This document shows, piece after piece, positions 12,451 through 56,127 of a stretch of 64,000 bases of DNA. Both the position numbers and the translations under genes were made by a program. The stretch is from Acidobacteriota bacterium. Its GTDB lineage: Bacteria > Acidobacteriota > JAAYUB01. Position 1 is the stretch's first letter, and every line of letters starts with the position of its first letter. The notes under the pieces are model-generated. The model had not been told where the DNA came from, did no database searches, and worked only from the letters and a program-made list of their open reading frames with translations. The stretch is from assembly GCA_029565065.1 (NCBI GenBank), contig JAKQOW010000048.1:1-64000 (forward strand). Reading direction: 5' to 3'.

Positions 12451-13065
12451 GTGGATAACCGCTACCTCTCCTTCGAGATCGACAAGCTGATGGAGGAAAA
12501 CCGGAAGCTGCGCTCCGAGAACCGCAATTTCCGCGAGATCCTTTCCTGCGACCAGGATCTCATCATCCGCTACCACATTCTCGACCGCTGCTTCCAGTAT
12601 GTCAGTCCGGCGGCCACCACCCTGACCGGGCATCAGCCGTCGGCATTTTACGAAAATCCCGGGCTGCTCGCCGAGTTGGTGGACGCCGAGCACCGGCCGG
12701 CGTTCGACGCGTTCTGGCTGGCGGCGGCCGCCGGCGCGGCCGATACGGAGCTCCAGCTTCGGTTCCGTCACTCCGACGGTCATACGGTCTGGGCCGCGAT
12801 GAGGACATGGCCGGTGATCAACCACATGGGCCGCCAGGTGGCCGTGATCGGCAGCATCCGGGACATCTCGCTGCAGAAACAGATGGAGGAGCGCATCCGC
12901 AAGCTGGAGGGCCTCATCCCCATCTGCGCCGGCTGCAAGAAAATCCGCCTGCCCGATCACACATGGCAGGAAATCGAGAGCTTCCTGGCCCGCCGGTCCA
13001 ACATGGATTTCACCCACGGCCTCTGTCCGGAGTGTCGTCACCGCTACTTCCCGTCGCGCCCCTGA
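12451..13065 (+). CDS. PAS-domain protein with C-terminal cysteine motif
   Basis: A 204-residue cytosolic protein starting at GTG with GGAGG upstream. Residues 1-30 form a coiled coil (FEIDKLMEENRKLRSENRNF). A PAS domain follows to about 145, ending in the PAC-like VAVIGSIRDISLQKQMEERI. The last 55 residues carry PICAGCKKIR, then W-x2-IESFLA, then FTHGLCPECRHRYFP. This Cys4 arrangement is common at the C-terminus of signalling proteins and probably binds a metal. No output domain is present, so it is either a sensor that acts by protein contact or an adaptor for the nearby kinase-type genes. Confidence 0.7.
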   Translation: MDNRYLSFEIDKLMEENRKLRSENRNFREILSCDQDLIIRYHILDRCFQYVSPAATTLTGHQPSAFYENPGLLAELVDAEHRPAFDAFWLAAAAGAADTELQLRFRHSDGHTVWAAMRTWPVINHMGRQVAVIGSIRDISLQKQMEERIRKLEGLIPICAGCKKIRLPDHTWQEIESFLARRSNMDFTHGLCPECRHRYFPSRP

Positions 13066-13128: not shown

Positions 13129-14226
13129 TCACGGTTGTTTCTGGAGAATGTCGTCCATGTTGGGGGTGGCGGCCTGCAGGTCGGGGAACACCCGCTCCAC
13201 CACCGGCCGCAGATACTCGACCCCGGGAAAGAAGGTCTCGACGAATTTCAGGAAGGCCACCACGATGTCCGGGTCGAACTGGGTGCCGGAGCACTTCTGG
13301 ATCTCCTCGACGGCATAGGAGACCGGGCGGGCGCTCCGGTATGGGCGGTCCGACGTGATGGCGTCGAAGGCGTCGGCCACCGACAGGATGCGGGCGCCGA
13401 TGGGAGTCGCTTCGCCCTTGAGCCCGTCCGGCCGGCCGTTGCCGTCCCAGTACTCATGATGGTGCTTGACGTAGCCCAGGATGTCGCTGTCGCGCAGAAT
13501 GGGTGACAGGATCTTGGCGCTGATAGCCGGGTGATAGTAGATGTGCGAGAACTCCTCGGCGTCGAGCGAGGTGGGCTTGTTGAGAACGCTCTCCTTGACC
13601 CCGATCTTGCCGATGTCGTGCAGCAGGCCGGCGAGATACACCTTCTGGATCTGCTCGCGGGAGATGCCCATGATCCGGGCGATCTCCACGGCGTACCGGG
13701 TGACCCGGCGGGAATGGCCCTCGGTGTACTTGTCCTTGGCTTCCAGCGCCGAGACCAGCGACTTGATCGCGTCCAGGTAGAGGTTCTTGATCTGGACGGT
13801 CTGCTCCTCGACCTTGTCCTCCAGGAACAGTTGGTACTCCCGGTTCTTCAGGATCAGATTGCGCTTCTCCAGGGCCCGCTCCACGGCGATGCACACCTCG
13901 TCCAGGTTGAAGGGCTTGGTGATGTAATCGGAGGCGCCCATCTTGAGCGTTTCGATGGCGATGCTCATGTCGGACACGGCGGTCACCATGATCACCGCCA
14001 GGTCAGGGTCCAGGACGCGGACCTTCTTCAGCAGGTCGATGCCGCTCATGCCCGGCATCCGGATGTCGCTCATCATCAGGTCGAATTTCTGGCCGTTTTG
14101 AAAACAATCCAGTGCGTTCTGGGCGTTGGGCGCCGGCTGGCAGTGGTACCCTTCCTCCATGAGCCGCCAGGTCAGGATCTCGCGCACGCTCGGCTCGTCT
14201 TCGACAACCAGAATGGACGCGGGCAT
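13129..14226 (-). CDS. Response regulator with HD-GYP output domain
   Basis: A 365-residue two-domain regulator. The receiver domain (about 1-120) has the acidic pair Glu9-Asp10, phospho-acceptor Asp54 in MMSDIRMPG, Thr82 and Lys104. A coiled linker follows, then an HD-GYP domain with HSRRVTRYA, LLHDIGKIGV and HHEYWDGNGRPDGLKG. The family normally hydrolyses cyclic di-GMP; here the GYP motif reads GRP, which may still be active. I moved the start to ATG 14226, after GGAGGA. It is the third gene of the Crp-DHp-regulator operon, 1 nt after the DHp gene. The DHp protein is the obvious phosphodonor or partner. Confidence 0.92.
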   Translation of the reverse strand: MPASILVVEDEPSVREILTWRLMEEGYHCQPAPNAQNALDCFQNGQKFDLMMSDIRMPGMSGIDLLKKVRVLDPDLAVIMVTAVSDMSIAIETLKMGASDYITKPFNLDEVCIAVERALEKRNLILKNREYQLFLEDKVEEQTVQIKNLYLDAIKSLVSALEAKDKYTEGHSRRVTRYAVEIARIMGISREQIQKVYLAGLLHDIGKIGVKESVLNKPTSLDAEEFSHIYYHPAISAKILSPILRDSDILGYVKHHHEYWDGNGRPDGLKGEATPIGARILSVADAFDAITSDRPYRSARPVSYAVEEIQKCSGTQFDPDIVVAFLKFVETFFPGVEYLRPVVERVFPDLQAATPNMDDILQKQP

Positions 14227-14227
14227 G

Positions 14228-14443
14228 TCAATCCTCCGGCTCGTGGCAGTTGTCATTGAGCAGCCGCCCGATCTGCTCGCAGCAGATGAGGATCTTGTCG
14301 ATCCGCCGGCGGGCTCCCGGCGACAATTGCTGTTCCTGGAGCAGCAGCAGATCGACCTGCCCCCGGATCGTGGTCAGGGGGGTGTTCAGGTCATGCCGTA
14401 ACCGCCGGAGCCGTTCCGGGTAATCGGGAGGTGCACCGCTCAT
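14228..14443 (-). CDS. Stand-alone histidine kinase DHp domain protein
   Basis: A 71-residue protein that is almost entirely a HisKA-type dimerisation helix pair. The H-box RLRRLRHDLNTPLTTIRGQV has the phospho-acceptor His17, followed by a second helix with RRIDKILICCEQIGRLL. No ATP-binding domain follows: the gene stops 1 nt before the response regulator start. Its ATG overlaps the Crp stop (ATGA), so the overlaps on both sides argue it is real and translated. It may be a histidine phosphotransfer protein or a dimer partner borrowing a kinase in trans. I see no frameshift that would restore a kinase. Confidence 0.75.
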   Translation of the reverse strand: MSGAPPDYPERLRRLRHDLNTPLTTIRGQVDLLLLQEQQLSPGARRRIDKILICCEQIGRLLNDNCHEPED

Positions 14444-15120
14444 GGCTGCACGTTTTTCCAGCGGTCATGGCCCACCAGGACGAACTTATGGGCGCGGATT
14501 TTCAGCATCTTCTGGGTTTGCAGCTTGGAGATGATCCGGCTGATGGTCTCACGGGAAGTGCCGGCGATCTCCGCCAGGTCCTGGTGGGTGATTTTCGTCG
14601 AGATCAGCACCTCATCGGCCTCCCACTGGCCGTCCACGCGGGCGAGGCTCATCAGGACGTGTTTGAGCCGGGTTTCGGCGTCGTTGAATTTCAGAATCTG
14701 GATGGTCTTCCAGGAGTCCCGTAGTTTCCGGCACAGGATGGTCAGCAGGGATTCCACCACCTGGGCGTTCTTCATCAGCACGGCTTCGAAATGCTGCTTG
14801 GAGATCGAAATGATCTTGCAGTCTTCCATCGCCACCACCGTGGCCGGGGTGGTCTCGTTGTCCAGGAGGGAGAGCTCGCCGAACGTGTCGCCGGGCCCGT
14901 GGATCGCGAGGATGTTCTCCCGGCCGTCCGGCGTGGTCTGCAGCACCTTCACCTCGCCGTACTTGACGATGTACATGTACTGGCCGGTCTCTTCCTCGAT
15001 GAAGATGACCTGGTTCTTCTTGTACTCGCGCTCAAGAAAGATGGCCTGAAGATTCTGGAGCTCGGCCGCAGTCAGATTGTGAAACAGGGGGATGCGCTTA
15101 AAAAAATCGATACTGGTCAC
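14440..15120 (-). CDS. Crp/Fnr-family transcription regulator
   Basis: About 226 residues. The N-terminal cyclic-nucleotide-binding-like beta barrel (residues about 10-115) includes GDTFGELSLLDNETTPATVVA, which resembles the phosphate-binding cassette of CRP. The C-terminal winged helix has THQDLAEIAGTSRETISRII. There is no N-terminal cysteine cluster, so it is not an Fnr-type oxygen sensor. The start is unclear: I prefer GTG 15120; a TTG at 15141 is in frame. A symmetric site TTCAAT-AGTAC-ATTGAA lies 33 nt upstream and may be its own operator. First gene of the operon with the DHp and HD-GYP genes. Confidence 0.9.
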   Translation of the reverse strand: MTSIDFFKRIPLFHNLTAAELQNLQAIFLEREYKKNQVIFIEEETGQYMYIVKYGEVKVLQTTPDGRENILAIHGPGDTFGELSLLDNETTPATVVAMEDCKIISISKQHFEAVLMKNAQVVESLLTILCRKLRDSWKTIQILKFNDAETRLKHVLMSLARVDGQWEADEVLISTKITHQDLAEIAGTSRETISRIISKLQTQKMLKIRAHKFVLVGHDRWKNVQP

Positions 15121-15152
15121 GGCACCCGCTCGACCATCCAAGGATCATTTGC

Positions 15153-15188: not shown

Positions 15189-16859
15189 CTATTGGCCGCC
15201 CGGCAGTGAGATCTGGTTGGCTACCGAGCGGCTCTCGCCCACGCAGGTGACCAGGATCGCGGCCCGGTCGGCGATCGGGCACTTGTTCTCGCAGATCCCG
15301 CAGCCGATGCAGAAGGCCGCGTCGATAACCGGCTTCTGGACGTCGATCCACCGGCCGTCCGGCGCCTGGACCCGGTCCCGGACCAGCTTGATCGCCTTCT
15401 GGCCCTGGATGGTGGGGCACACCTCCTCGCACACGATGCACGGTTTGGCCTGGGCCCACGGCAGGCATCGGTTCCGGTCCACGTACGCCAAGCCCAGGCG
15501 GATCGGCGCCCGGCCGTTCCGGCCGAGCCGGTCGTCCAGCGTGGTCGGCCGGATGGCCTCGGTGGGGCACACCTGTCCGCACAGTGTGCAGCGGTCGTCG
15601 CAATAGCCAATCTTGGGCACCACGATGGGTGTCCACAGGGCGCTCACGCCGCCCTCGAAGGCCGCCGGATGCAGCGCGTTCGTCGGACACACTTTCATGC
15701 ACGCGCCGCACCGCACGCACCGGCTCAGAAAGTCATCCTCGGCCCGGGCGCCCGGCGGGCGAATCAACTTGTCGCTCGCCTTGAAGACCTTCCGGTCGCG
15801 CTCCGCGTTCTCCGCCCCGATGGCCTGCAGGGGCGCCAGCACGAATCCGCCTACGGCCGCGCCCAGCACCGCCCGGCGACTCAGGTCGGCCAGCGGCCGG
15901 CGCTCCGCCGGCACCGGACGCGCGAGGCGGAACCGGAACTCCAGGGCGTTCTCGGGACACACGTCGATGCAGTTGGCGCACAGGTGGCACTCGGACGAGA
16001 TCCAGGGCTCCCCCGGGATCGGCTGATCACCGCCCTGGCACCCCTGGAGGCACCGGTTGCACCGGGTGCAGCGGTCCGCGTGCTTGTGAAGGGTCAGCGG
16101 GGCCCGCGCCGCGCACACCCCCAACCAGGCGCCCAGCGGGCAGAGGTAGCGGCACCAGAACCGCGTTTCCACGCGGTTGAGCGCCAGCACGACGCCGAAG
16201 GTGAGTCCGATGCAGAACGCGTGGAGGAAGAAACGGCTGTCGAATGGGACGACGACGCCCCGCAACCCGGCGATCAGGGTGTCGCCGGTCGTCGTCCATC
16301 CGATCCAGTCCATGAGGCGGACCACCCCGTCCAGGCCCAACCCCATCGACGGGTGCACCCAGACGGCCATGGACCGCGTCAGGAACGAAAACGGATCGAG
16401 CCAGCCCACCTGCTGCAGCCCCAACAGGCTCCCGGCAAGGAAGAACGCGAGGACCAGGTACTTCAGGTTGCGTTTCGCGTTCCAGCGCCAGCGCTCGCTC
16501 CGCACCGCCCGCCGCCGGGCGGTCTTGCCGGCGGAAAGCAGCTGCTGGAGAGTGCCGAACGGACAGACCCAGCCGCAGAATGCCCGGTTGAGCAGGATGG
16601 CCGACAGGATGGTGACCAGGGACCACAGCAGGACCGGCAGGAACTCCCGGGAAGCGATCCACGTCGTCACCGCGAGTAGCGGATCGAGATAAAAGAACAG
16701 GCCCACTGGCGTCTGGATGCGAAAGGCTTCCATCTCGCCCGCAGGTCCGAACGGCGGAAATTCCATCCGGAAGAACAGGTACAGGAACAGCACGAAGCAG
16801 ACGGTCTGGCTGAGCCGGCGAAAGTTCGCCAGCCGGAAGAGGCGTTTCGCGCGCTTCAT
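15189..16859 (-). CDS. NapH-NapG-like fused polyferredoxin membrane protein
   Basis: A 556-residue electron-transfer protein. The N-terminal half resembles NapH: membrane helices with CGWVCPFGT and CRYLCPLGA, then two [4Fe-4S] motifs CTRCNRC and CHLCANCIDVCP. In the middle, SRRAVLGAAVGGFVLAPLQA looks like an internal twin-arginine segment, as at the start of NapG. Four further Cys clusters follow (CVRCGACMKVCP, CTLCGQVCP, CIVCEEVCP, CIGCGICENKCP). It thus looks like a natural NapH-NapG fusion that could pass electrons from quinol to periplasmic carriers. It follows the DUF362 gene with no gap. Confidence 0.85.
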   Translation of the reverse strand: MKRAKRLFRLANFRRLSQTVCFVLFLYLFFRMEFPPFGPAGEMEAFRIQTPVGLFFYLDPLLAVTTWIASREFLPVLLWSLVTILSAILLNRAFCGWVCPFGTLQQLLSAGKTARRRAVRSERWRWNAKRNLKYLVLAFFLAGSLLGLQQVGWLDPFSFLTRSMAVWVHPSMGLGLDGVVRLMDWIGWTTTGDTLIAGLRGVVVPFDSRFFLHAFCIGLTFGVVLALNRVETRFWCRYLCPLGAWLGVCAARAPLTLHKHADRCTRCNRCLQGCQGGDQPIPGEPWISSECHLCANCIDVCPENALEFRFRLARPVPAERRPLADLSRRAVLGAAVGGFVLAPLQAIGAENAERDRKVFKASDKLIRPPGARAEDDFLSRCVRCGACMKVCPTNALHPAAFEGGVSALWTPIVVPKIGYCDDRCTLCGQVCPTEAIRPTTLDDRLGRNGRAPIRLGLAYVDRNRCLPWAQAKPCIVCEEVCPTIQGQKAIKLVRDRVQAPDGRWIDVQKPVIDAAFCIGCGICENKCPIADRAAILVTCVGESRSVANQISLPGGQ

Positions 16860-17810
16860 CTACAGCTCCACGGTCCGGGTCTTGAGGCCGGCCAGATCCA
16901 TGCGCCCGATGCCGCGCCGGCTGGCTTCGACGACGAAGCCCATCTGGGCGGGGTCGATGTCGAACAGGCTGCAGCCGAACGCGTCGACGGCGACCATGTC
17001 CACGCCGGCGACCAGGGTTCGGGAGAGGACGGCGTCGGCGAGCGAGCCCCCCTGCGGACCGTTGCGCACCAGAATGCGGTAGGCGTCGAGGATCGTCAGG
17101 GTGGGCCGCACGAAGCCGCCCAGGTCCGCCAGGGCGGTGTGGATGTTCTGGTGGAACGCCTCGCGCCGACCGCCGATCACGCCCATCAGGTTCTTGAACC
17201 CGAGGCTGAGCCGCGCGGTGCTGTGCTGCTTGGCGACGGGCACGTTGATCACCTTGTCCGCCTCCAGCACGTCGCGGTAGATGGGCCAATTTTTCAGCCA
17301 CTCGCCGCCGAGCGTCATCTCCACGAATTTGCGCTCATCGACAAACTCCAGTTCCACCCCCAGGTCCTGGACGGCCTTGGAGATGCCGCTGCGCGCGTAG
17401 CAATGGCGGGCTTCATAGAGGCTGTGGTCGAAGATCTTGACCGTCTTGGCTCCCGCGTTGAGGATCGCCACGGCCAGCGCCCGGACCACATCCGGGTTGG
17501 TGTTGGCTGCCTGCTCGGGCACGCGATTGAACCCGATGTTAGGCTTGAGCACCACGCGGTCACCCCGGGCGATGAATCGCTGCATGCCTCCCAGCGCCGC
17601 CAAGGCCTCGCGCACCAGCACGTCCGGTTCGCCGTTGCGGACCACCACCAGATCGAGCGCCGGCGCTCCGACGCGCTTGTCGGCGCTCAGTTCCCTGCCG
17701 CCGCCGCACCCCCCCAGGCCTGCGAGGGCGATGCCCGCCGCCGCCGGAACGAGCAAGTCTTCCAGAACCTCCCGGCGGGTCCAGGGCGTGGTGAACGGAC
17801 GTTTGGACAT
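16860..17810 (-). CDS. DUF362-family protein with twin-arginine lipoprotein-like signal
   Basis: A 316-residue DUF362 protein. The N-terminus reads WTRREVLEDLLVPAAAGIALA and then LGGCGGG, that is a twin-arginine motif, a hydrophobic stretch and a lipobox cysteine. The DUF362 core includes DRVVLKPNIGFN, INVPVAKQHSTARLSLGFKN and GVDMVAVDAFG. DUF362 proteins often accompany or carry ferredoxin domains; this one has none of its own and abuts the polyferredoxin gene, which could supply the clusters. The reaction is unknown. Co-transcription is very likely, as the stop and next start are adjacent. Confidence 0.85.
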   Translation of the reverse strand: MSKRPFTTPWTRREVLEDLLVPAAAGIALAGLGGCGGGRELSADKRVGAPALDLVVVRNGEPDVLVREALAALGGMQRFIARGDRVVLKPNIGFNRVPEQAANTNPDVVRALAVAILNAGAKTVKIFDHSLYEARHCYARSGISKAVQDLGVELEFVDERKFVEMTLGGEWLKNWPIYRDVLEADKVINVPVAKQHSTARLSLGFKNLMGVIGGRREAFHQNIHTALADLGGFVRPTLTILDAYRILVRNGPQGGSLADAVLSRTLVAGVDMVAVDAFGCSLFDIDPAQMGFVVEASRRGIGRMDLAGLKTRTVEL

Positions 17811-53992: not shown

Positions 53993-54433
53993 TCACGCCC
54001 GCTCCCCCGCCGGAATCGTCAGTTTCTTGAGCATGACCAGCCGGGTTCCCGACGGCTGGACAACCTCATAATCCACGTTGTCCATAAAAGACCGGATGTA
54101 GAAGATGCCCCGGCCGGATGGCTTGAGAATGTTCTCGTCGTTGAGGGGATCGGGTACGTCGTCGATGTTGAAACCCGTCCCCTGGTCCGCCACCTCGATC
54201 CGCAACTGCTCGCCCTGAAGACCCACCGAGAAATCCACATACTTGCCGGCATCGAAGTTGTTGCCGTGCTTCACGGCGTTGATGACCGCCTCCCGCACCG
54301 CCAGGCAAATCCAGAAGATCTCATCCTCGATGACCTTGAGGTTTTCAAGGATCTTCTGAACGACTTCTTGGGCAATGTCGATGAACAGGACTTCGCTGCT
54401 GAACCGCATTCGGATGAGCTCGTGTTTGGGCAT
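53993..54433 (-). CDS. RsbW-like serine kinase/anti-sigma factor
   Basis: A 146-residue GHKL protein with the N-box WICLAVREAVINAVKHGNNF, the G1 box VADQGTGFNIDD and the G2 box GRGIFYIRSFMD. Members bind a target, often sigma factor or another regulator, and phosphorylate a STAS protein. The STAS partner is the next gene. Start ATG 54433, with GGGAG 11 nt upstream. Confidence 0.92.
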   Translation of the reverse strand: MPKHELIRMRFSSEVLFIDIAQEVVQKILENLKVIEDEIFWICLAVREAVINAVKHGNNFDAGKYVDFSVGLQGEQLRIEVADQGTGFNIDDVPDPLNDENILKPSGRGIFYIRSFMDNVDYEVVQPSGTRLVMLKKLTIPAGERA

Positions 54434-54553: not shown

Positions 54554-56086
54554 CTAATCCACCCCCAGCAGGATGCCGACGTTTTTCTGGAAATCGACGA
54601 TTCGGAACGGCTTCATCATGAACGCGACCGCGGCCCCATCGGTGAACAGCTGGGGATTCTGCCGCGGCAGGTCCTGACCGCTGATGAACAGCACCGGCAC
54701 GTCGGGTTTCCGGCGGCGGATTTCCAGATAGAGTCCGACGCCCGACATATCCTCCAGGATGGCATCCAGAATGATCAGGTCGATCCGGTCCAGATCGCTG
54801 TCCAGAATCGCCTGGGCGGTCCGGCCGCTGCCGGCGATGTGCACCCGGAGCCCCATGTCCAGCAGCAGGCGCTGGAGAATTTTGACAATGTCCGGCTCGT
54901 CGTCCACCACCAAGGCGGTCAGCCCGTCCAGGGCGGCCTTCCGGCTTCGGGTGGCGGGCACATCCGCCGTTGCGGCGACCGGGACTTCATAGACCGGCAA
55001 CTGGATCCGGGCGGTGGTTCCCCGCCCCAGCGTGCTGGCCAGGCGGATTTCACCGCCATGGTTCCGAACGATGCCCATGGCCATCGACAGTCCCATGCCC
55101 AGCGCTTCGTTCTGTGTTTTCGTCGTGAAGAACGGATCGAACGCCCTGGCCAGCTCGTCGCGGGTCATGCCGCGTCCGGAATCGGCGATGCAGATCTCGA
55201 TCCAGCGCTGTTCCGGGTGCGCGGCGGCCGGCTGCGGATGCCGGCGGCGCCGCCGGGCCAGCGCCGCCTTGATGAGCACGCCACCCGGTTCGTCCTCGAT
55301 GGACTCGATGGCGTTGGCCAGGATGTTCATGAACGCGTCCGTGAGCTGAAACGGGTCACCGATCATGTACAGGTCGCGCGCCAGCGGTTTCACACTGACC
55401 CGGCAGCGCTCGGGACCGGCCAGCACCGACGATTTCGCCACGAGTTCAAGCAGAAACTCGTTGACGGACATCGGCGTGTTGCTCCGGCGCGCGGGAGCGG
55501 CAAAGGCAAGCAGCTTCTGGTTCAAGCCGGCGCCCCGATCGGCCAGATGGGTGATGCCGTCGGCGTACGCGCGGATCATGGCTGTGTTGGGATCCGGATA
55601 TCGGCTGATGAGTTCGGCGTATCCCTTGATACCGGCCAAGATGTTGTTGAAGTTGTGGATGATCCCGGCCGCCAGCGTGGTCAGGGATTGGCGTTTTTCA
55701 CGCTCAAAATCCTGCCGGACCTTGTCCGTCTGGCCGGCCCCGGTCGCCAGGCGGAGGTAGAACAGTGTGGGCGAACCCGGCAGGAAATCGGCCTCGAACG
55801 CGCACGCCTCGCCATGAAGCTGAAGGTTTCCCCGCGCCGGCCCGTTCGCATGCGGCCCGTGGCGGAATTTATCGAGGATCCGCTGGGATGCCGGCGGCTC
55901 CAGTTGTTCGAGCACATCCGCCAACGTCTGGCAACCGGCCACGCGTTCGAGAAATGCGCCGTTGGACTTGATAGCGCGCCCGTCCGCGCCGAAGATCACC
56001 ATGGGTTCGCCGACCAGTTCCACCAGATACGTCTCCAGACACCTGGTCGCGTCCGGAGCCTGTCCATCGCGGATGCGTCTCGCCAT
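54554..56086 (-). CDS. Hybrid histidine kinase with C-terminal receiver
   Basis: A 510-residue soluble kinase. An N-terminal PAS-like region (about 20-120, EPMVIFGADGRAIKSN) precedes the H-box LAAGIIHNFNNILAGIKGYA, phospho-acceptor about His144. The ATPase domain has the N-box AFMNILANAIESIED, G1 DSGRGM and G2 GMGLSMAMGIV. A receiver domain at about 390-510 has VVDDEPDIVKIL and LIILDAILEDM with the acceptor Asp. No membrane helix is seen, so the sensor is cytosolic. I use ATG 56086 (GGGGG upstream). Its relation to the neighbouring RsbW-STAS genes is unproven. Confidence 0.9.
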   Translation of the reverse strand: MARRIRDGQAPDATRCLETYLVELVGEPMVIFGADGRAIKSNGAFLERVAGCQTLADVLEQLEPPASQRILDKFRHGPHANGPARGNLQLHGEACAFEADFLPGSPTLFYLRLATGAGQTDKVRQDFEREKRQSLTTLAAGIIHNFNNILAGIKGYAELISRYPDPNTAMIRAYADGITHLADRGAGLNQKLLAFAAPARRSNTPMSVNEFLLELVAKSSVLAGPERCRVSVKPLARDLYMIGDPFQLTDAFMNILANAIESIEDEPGGVLIKAALARRRRRHPQPAAAHPEQRWIEICIADSGRGMTRDELARAFDPFFTTKTQNEALGMGLSMAMGIVRNHGGEIRLASTLGRGTTARIQLPVYEVPVAATADVPATRSRKAALDGLTALVVDDEPDIVKILQRLLLDMGLRVHIAGSGRTAQAILDSDLDRIDLIILDAILEDMSGVGLYLEIRRRKPDVPVLFISGQDLPRQNPQLFTDGAAVAFMMKPFRIVDFQKNVGILLGVD

Positions 56087-56127
56087 GCAGCCCCCTGAGT
56101 CCACAAACAATTGTTGAAATTGGGTAG

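Follow-up and report, generated by a model that had tools for sequence, protein, structure and literature searches.

HisKA-type histidine kinases carry in their DHp domain the motif H-E/D-x-x-T/N, in which the acidic residue following the His (+1) is needed for the kinase reaction only, and the Thr or Asn at +4 for the phosphatase reaction only (PMC3510030). For EnvZ and NtrB, the isolated DHp domain suffices to dephosphorylate the regulator, and the phosphatase activity of EnvZ is much higher with the CA domain (PMC3510030). HisKA proteins devoid of the HATPase domain have been counted before: SMART contains 1556 of them among 42417 HisKA proteins (~3.7%), 711 of which possess the phosphatase motif (PMC3591291), and a census of Archaea recorded CA-less HisKA proteins with PAS/GAF sensors, for which phosphatase activity was proposed (PMC5847659). 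In the split kinase pair CheA3/CheA4, free CheA3 acts as a phosphatase (PMC3591291). For the HD-GYP regulator RpfG the partner is a full sensor kinase, RpfC, and the REC domain of RpfG has been proposed to inhibit HD-GYP as long as it is unphosphorylated (PMC3749722).

The window analyzed here (the whole stretch of 64,000 nucleotides from an Acidobacteriota bacterium) contains on its minus strand three tightly packed genes in the order Crp/Fnr, DHp, REC-HD-GYP. Their features are given below, together with their occurrence in six genomes of the taxonomic order and in a wider clade of 16 CA-less DHp proteins encoded next to response regulators.

14440..15141 (-): regulator of the Crp/Fnr family, 233 aa, opening the three-gene unit; Pfam cNMP_binding and HTH_Crp_2; same place in all six genomes
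14228..14443 (-): 71-aa CA-less DHp (HisKA) protein; Pfam PF00512, no HATPase; AF2 helical hairpin; present in each of the order's six genomes
14393..14395 (-): His17 codon (predicted phospho-acceptor); residue unchanged in 16/16 clade members (alignments A1, A3 without its out-of-frame row L074, and A4, and motif table)
14381..14383 (-): Thr21 codon; +4 in H-E/D-x-x-T/N, the phosphatase residue; T/T/T/S/N/N in the order (residue role from PMC3510030)
14279..14281 (-): codon of Cys55, helix 2; common to the regulator-coupled clade, invariant in A4
13129..14226 (-): REC-HD-GYP response regulator of 365 aa and predicted partner of the DHp protein; Pfam matches to Response_reg (102 bits) and HD_5 (130 bits)

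The middle gene begins with ATG and ends with TGA. Its 71-aa product matches the Pfam family HisKA (PF00512) alone, with 44.4 bits over residues 13-64 against a curated cut-off of 26.9 bits, and the same scan found no HATPase (CA) domain in it; without this domain the protein is unable to use ATP or to phosphorylate itself. The H-box reads LRHDLNTPLTTI, with His17 as the predicted phospho-acceptor. A whole-genome HisKA search also matches this locus (E = 1.6e-10; open frame of 78 codons), which is the sole HisKA match in the organism's own genome to lie in a frame shorter than 250 codons. The AF2 model of a single chain, calculated from a six-sequence alignment, consists of two helices (residues 8-36 and 42-64; mean pLDDT 82.6, ~90 in the cores of both), and the best PDB folds identified with Foldseek are DHp domains (the RetS-GacS complex 7n0e and the isolated DHp domains of ERS1, EnvZ and GacS), with weak E-values (0.07 for the top match, 7n0e), as expected for a two-helix hairpin. 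No solved protein close in sequence was found; the nearest include the DHp domains of KdpD, GacS and EnvZ. Presumably, the modeled hairpin dimerizes into a four-helix bundle. The earlier note, made from the sequence alone, had described a 71-residue DHp-only protein with a His17 H-box, a second helix and no ATPase domain, and this description agrees with both the Pfam scan and the predicted helices.

The DHp gene overlaps the Crp gene by 4 nt, and 1 nt lies between its stop codon (14228-14230) and the ATG of the REC/HD-GYP gene (first base 14226). The arrangement Crp-DHp-REC/HD-GYP is kept in all six genomes of the order examined, with genes that overlap or are spaced by a few bases and with DHp lengths of 67-82 aa. 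Identity to the window's protein is 90-96% in two congeners, 44% in one other genus of the family and ~29% in the sister family (n = 2); the orthologue from G003 scores 28.9 bits against PF00512, and those from G004 and G005 fall below the cut-off. Fourteen alignment columns are invariant in the six genomes, including His17, Leu23, Thr24, Gly28, Gln29, Leu32, Leu33 and Cys55, and dN/dS values of 0.09-0.18 among congeners (Nei-Gojobori) indicate purifying selection on the DHp protein sequence. The mechanical ORF list contains many chance ORFs of this size, to which the Pfam match, the six-genome conservation and the dN/dS values show that the DHp ORF does not belong; conservation, selection and lack of space also rule out a sequencing error. 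The earlier note had argued from the overlapping or abutting ends that the gene is neither a random frame nor a decayed kinase, and had suggested looking for the same gene order, for conservation of His17 and for an adjacent frame encoding a CA domain. The gene order and His17 proved conserved, the latter in the order as well as in the wider clade, and there is no room between the genes for a CA frame, none of which was found. Taken together, these observations support a genuine, pared-down DHp module that is under selection and linked to the REC/HD-GYP gene.

The downstream regulator is a predicted c-di-GMP phosphodiesterase with an altered GYP motif. Its receiver residues are present, its HD domain contains HDIGK and HHE-x2-DG with conserved His/Asp positions, and the GYP motif reads GRP (GRP or GGP in the orthologues, GGP in G003); overall it is 61-66% identical in G003 and G004. 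A regulator-based ortholog search among named genomes gave best matches in a Gemmatimonadetes bin (L076) and a deltaproteobacterium (L077), neither with a DHp-only gene in front. In the former a cystathionine gamma-synthase-like gene (L076 2631-3809) adjoins the regulator gene, and in the sister family such a gene lies divergently to the regulator unit (L030 3461-4645, L029 1575-2819).

At the other end of the unit, the Crp homologue (14440-15141, minus strand) reads GELSLLDNETTPATV at the site of the Arg-Ser with which E. coli Crp binds cAMP, so its ligand is probably other than cAMP. Upstream (15189-17810, minus strand) are genes for a DUF362 protein and a NosR/NapH-like 4Fe-4S membrane protein, which hint that the input may be anaerobic or redox-related; both genes are kept with the three-gene unit in family f1, and they were not found in front of it in the sister family. 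Convergent to the operon is a gene for a PAS protein (12451-13065, plus strand) with a Cys-rich end ('CAGCKKIR...CPECRHRYF'), kept in two congeners.

The relatives of the 71-aa protein are not confined to its order. When six-frame translations of the retrieved loci were searched with a profile of family f1 alone, the top matches outside f1 turned out to be CA-less DHp proteins encoded directly before response-regulator genes, rather than full kinases (G286, E = 4e-13; members of family f5, 8e-11 to 2e-8; sister-family orthologues, 2e-9 and 3e-7). A search of 396 genomes of the phylum with a profile of this regulator-coupled group (A4) gave 16 matches of 101 to 59.7 bits, followed by a gap down to 50.6 bits, where mixed other sequences appear. 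The maximum likelihood tree of 72 DHp domains places the clade on one side of a branch with bootstrap/aLRT support of 97/95, recovered in 96% of bootstrap trees, in a tree that rests on ~53 columns and whose deep forks are unresolved. The clade, which includes the 71-aa protein and went unmentioned in the earlier note, spans three lineages of one phylum. The next gene encodes a response regulator in 15 of the 16 members, the divergent G192 being the only one without it, and the regulator start mostly overlaps the DHp stop or follows it by a few bases (the widest gap, in G048 and G222, is ~55 nt, depending on the start codon chosen). These regulators are of the HD-GYP type in the window's order; in the other lineages, those that were scanned are NtrC-type sigma-54 activators, and the upstream genes there also differ from those of the window. 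Members of f5 have ~125 additional N-terminal residues, PAS-like by eye but with no Pfam match at 1e-3. The pattern around Cys55, expressed as a loose regular expression, occurs in all 16 clade members, in none of 13 other CA-less DHp proteins and in 6 of 63 full kinases.

CA-less DHp proteins as a whole do not form a single family: f21, f26, f9, f69 and f49 fall outside the clade, mostly without an adjoining regulator. Family f21 is a separate conserved group of stand-alone CA-less DHp proteins of the same phylum (98-134 aa, H-E-[IV]-N-N-P; L034 5161-5457, L066 4213-4617, L067 4740-5075, L068 4201-4512), and no regulator was found adjoining any of these four loci.

Analysis of the catalytic motif reveals opposite losses in different branches. 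The +1 acid is retained in 14 of the 16 clade members, and the residues at +1/+4 are D/T in the window's genus, D/S in G003, N/N in the sister family and D/N in G286. Hence +4 is Thr, Asn or, as a conservative change, Ser throughout the order, and the sister family has replaced the acid with Asn while keeping the Asn at +4. The NtrC-linked f5 branch has instead kept Asp or Glu at +1 and lost the Thr/Asn in all nine members (Gly in eight, Ala in one), which makes a single function for the whole clade unlikely. In the wider sample, a non-acidic +1 was found in 5/29 CA-less and 0/63 CA-bearing DHp domains (Fisher 0.002), and a +4 residue outside T/N/S/Q in 9/29 and 2/63, respectively (Fisher 0.0004); related sequences enter these counts as if they were independent and the kinases were picked by likeness to the clade, so the values are indicative only. 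Outside this sample is the hybrid HisKA-CA-REC kinase of the window (54554-56110, minus strand), which has H-N-F-N-N, i.e. Asn at +1 despite its CA domain. Further CA-less DHp proteins (L185, L054/L193, L074) have Ser, Gly or Lys after the His and thus no acidic kinase residue.

We tentatively suggest, as a reading somewhat less likely than not, that the clade is a vertically inherited, kinase-dead DHp family, each member of which would be the private partner of the downstream regulator, with opposite halves of the motif lost: a phosphatase type for HD-GYP regulators and a phosphoacceptor type for those of the NtrC type. If so, it would add a further kind of two-component partner to kinases and HPt proteins, and the two branches would provide a natural test of the kinase, phosphatase and phosphotransfer residues.

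For the protein of the window itself, we give about an even chance to the reading that it is a stand-alone DHp module which lost its ATPase half long ago and has been kept as the dedicated partner of the adjoining regulator, most likely as its phosphatase. The regulator is the likely partner because the DHp gene is coupled to its gene, and response-regulator dephosphorylation, which the earlier note did not consider, is in our assessment the activity with the best precedent for a DHp domain on its own. The surface of helix 1 around His17 would bind the REC domain of the HD-GYP regulator and phosphate would be removed from Asp54~P, either by a T/N-type phosphatase reaction (Thr21) or by back-transfer to His17, which would set the lifetime of the phosphorylated form of the predicted c-di-GMP phosphodiesterase. 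The regulator may receive its phosphate from a small phosphodonor or from a kinase whose gene lies elsewhere; if unphosphorylated REC inhibits HD-GYP as proposed for RpfG, the DHp phosphatase would keep the enzyme inactive until overridden by such a distant kinase. A phosphatase is favored over a phosphate donor because +4 is kept in all of the order, while +1 has been lost in one family. Against this, the loss of the acid is one event in one family, the window's own family has Asp at +1 and thus has not lost the kinase residue, and the invariance of His17 in the whole clade fits phosphotransfer at least as well as a pure phosphatase, which leaves room for phosphotransfer or back-transfer.

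A role as phosphorelay carrier, in which His17 would be loaded by a separate kinase (through its CA domain in trans) or by a phosphorylated REC and would pass the phosphate on to the HD-GYP regulator, in the manner of Spo0B or HPt proteins, appears to us rather unlikely. It would account for the invariant His and for the acid kept at +1 in most of the clade, the genome encodes many full-length kinases, and the DHp and CA domains of EnvZ are known to function on two chains (PMC3591291). However, the operon has no second REC, the Asn at +1 in the sister family speaks against direct phosphorylation by CA there, and Pfam SPOB_a gave no match at E<=10 in the three clade members tested. Moreover, no CA-only histidine-kinase partner was found among the 38 HATPase_c matches in the organism's own genome (93.5% complete): the matches without HisKA that were checked are other protein types, namely HATPase_c_2 (RsbW-like), LytS-like, NtrY-like, HisKA_3-type and MutL. 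The check for a CA domain lacking its DHp, proposed in the earlier note, turned up no such histidine-kinase partner among the matches checked, which weakens the split-kinase form of its idea. Conversely, the HisKA matches without a HATPase match are full-size pseudokinases with a degenerate CA region, and apart from the 71-aa protein no DHp lacking any CA was found in this genome. CA searches in four relatives yielded weak small HATPase frames (~138-164 codons) and, in G003, one frame of 212 codons. In the window, a 146-aa stand-alone HATPase_c_2 protein (RsbW-like; 53993-54433, minus strand) is encoded directly behind the hybrid kinase, and in the organism's own genome there are at least four pseudokinases with HisKA followed by a degenerate CA region (L161, L162, L163, L164).

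It is improbable that the protein acts as a heterodimerization partner or decoy, pairing with the DHp domain of a full-length kinase or occupying REC and thereby blocking or redirecting signaling, as RetS does on GacS. The RetS-GacS DHp complex is indeed the top fold match, but at this E-value it reflects the common DHp fold only; in the organism's own genome the protein finds no similar paralogous kinase DHp (only itself at E<=1e-3), a plain decoy would not need the His and the +4 residue, both of which are retained in the order, and the gene is coupled to a regulator, not to a kinase.

The 4-nt overlap upstream and the 1-nt gap downstream would also suit a structural leader, i.e. a short ORF whose translation only couples the synthesis of Crp and the regulator and whose peptide does little, yet the low dN/dS, the invariance of His17, Thr24, Gly28, Gln29 and Cys55 over the order, and the presence of homologues in other lineages, where both the regulator and the genes upstream are of other kinds, make this very improbable. 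A decayed or frameshifted kinase, suggested by the missing CA domain, is hardly credible, as intact Crp and regulator genes flank the ORF without space and the same arrangement, with the same short length, is conserved in six genomes under purifying selection.

If the phosphatase reading is true, nature has already cut a kinase down to its DHp domain, as was done experimentally with EnvZ, and kept the product as the private partner of a regulator, and a lone DHp would be tied to a predicted c-di-GMP phosphodiesterase. Genes of ~70 residues for DHp proteins are easily overlooked or labeled 'histidine kinase'. We found no description of a stand-alone DHp gene coupled to a regulator in the open-access papers searched; CA-less HisKA proteins as such are a known kind, and the conserved clade of lone regulator-coupled DHp proteins with branch-specific motif loss therefore appears to be a new variant.

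Compared with the DHp domains of HisKA kinases (EnvZ, NtrB, HK853, CrdS), the 71-aa protein has a domain match over the cut-off, an H-box of the form H-D-x-x-T-P-L-T and a helical hairpin, and the EnvZ DHp construct (1joy, 67 aa) is close to it in size; it differs from these kinases in lacking CA, sensor and linker, in being encoded naturally by its own gene, and in the helix-2 Cys, while the sister family has H-N-x-x-N and stays below the Pfam cut-off. It resembles Spo0B and HPt proteins as a small, helical, His-bearing non-kinase with a regulator partner, and would work alike if it were a phosphate carrier. Spo0B, however, has a degenerate CA domain, which the 71-aa protein lacks, and the operon offers no intermediate REC. 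With the proteins listed as 'HisKA, no HATPase' or 'possible incomplete histidine kinase', proposed to be phosphatases or phosphoacceptors (P2CS; PMC5847659; PMC3591291), it shares the conserved His and the missing HATPase, but where the archaeal ones carry PAS/GAF sensors, it is sensorless, belongs to a well-supported clade and is translationally coupled to a regulator. In CheA3/CheA4 the phospho-acceptor likewise lies apart from the catalytic domain; that pair is of the CheA type and has a known CA partner, which was not found for the 71-aa protein. Finally, in the RpfG/Clp pathway of Xanthomonas an HD-GYP regulator and a Crp-family regulator also act together, whereas here a DHp stub stands in the place of the kinase and the Crp homologue is encoded in the same operon.
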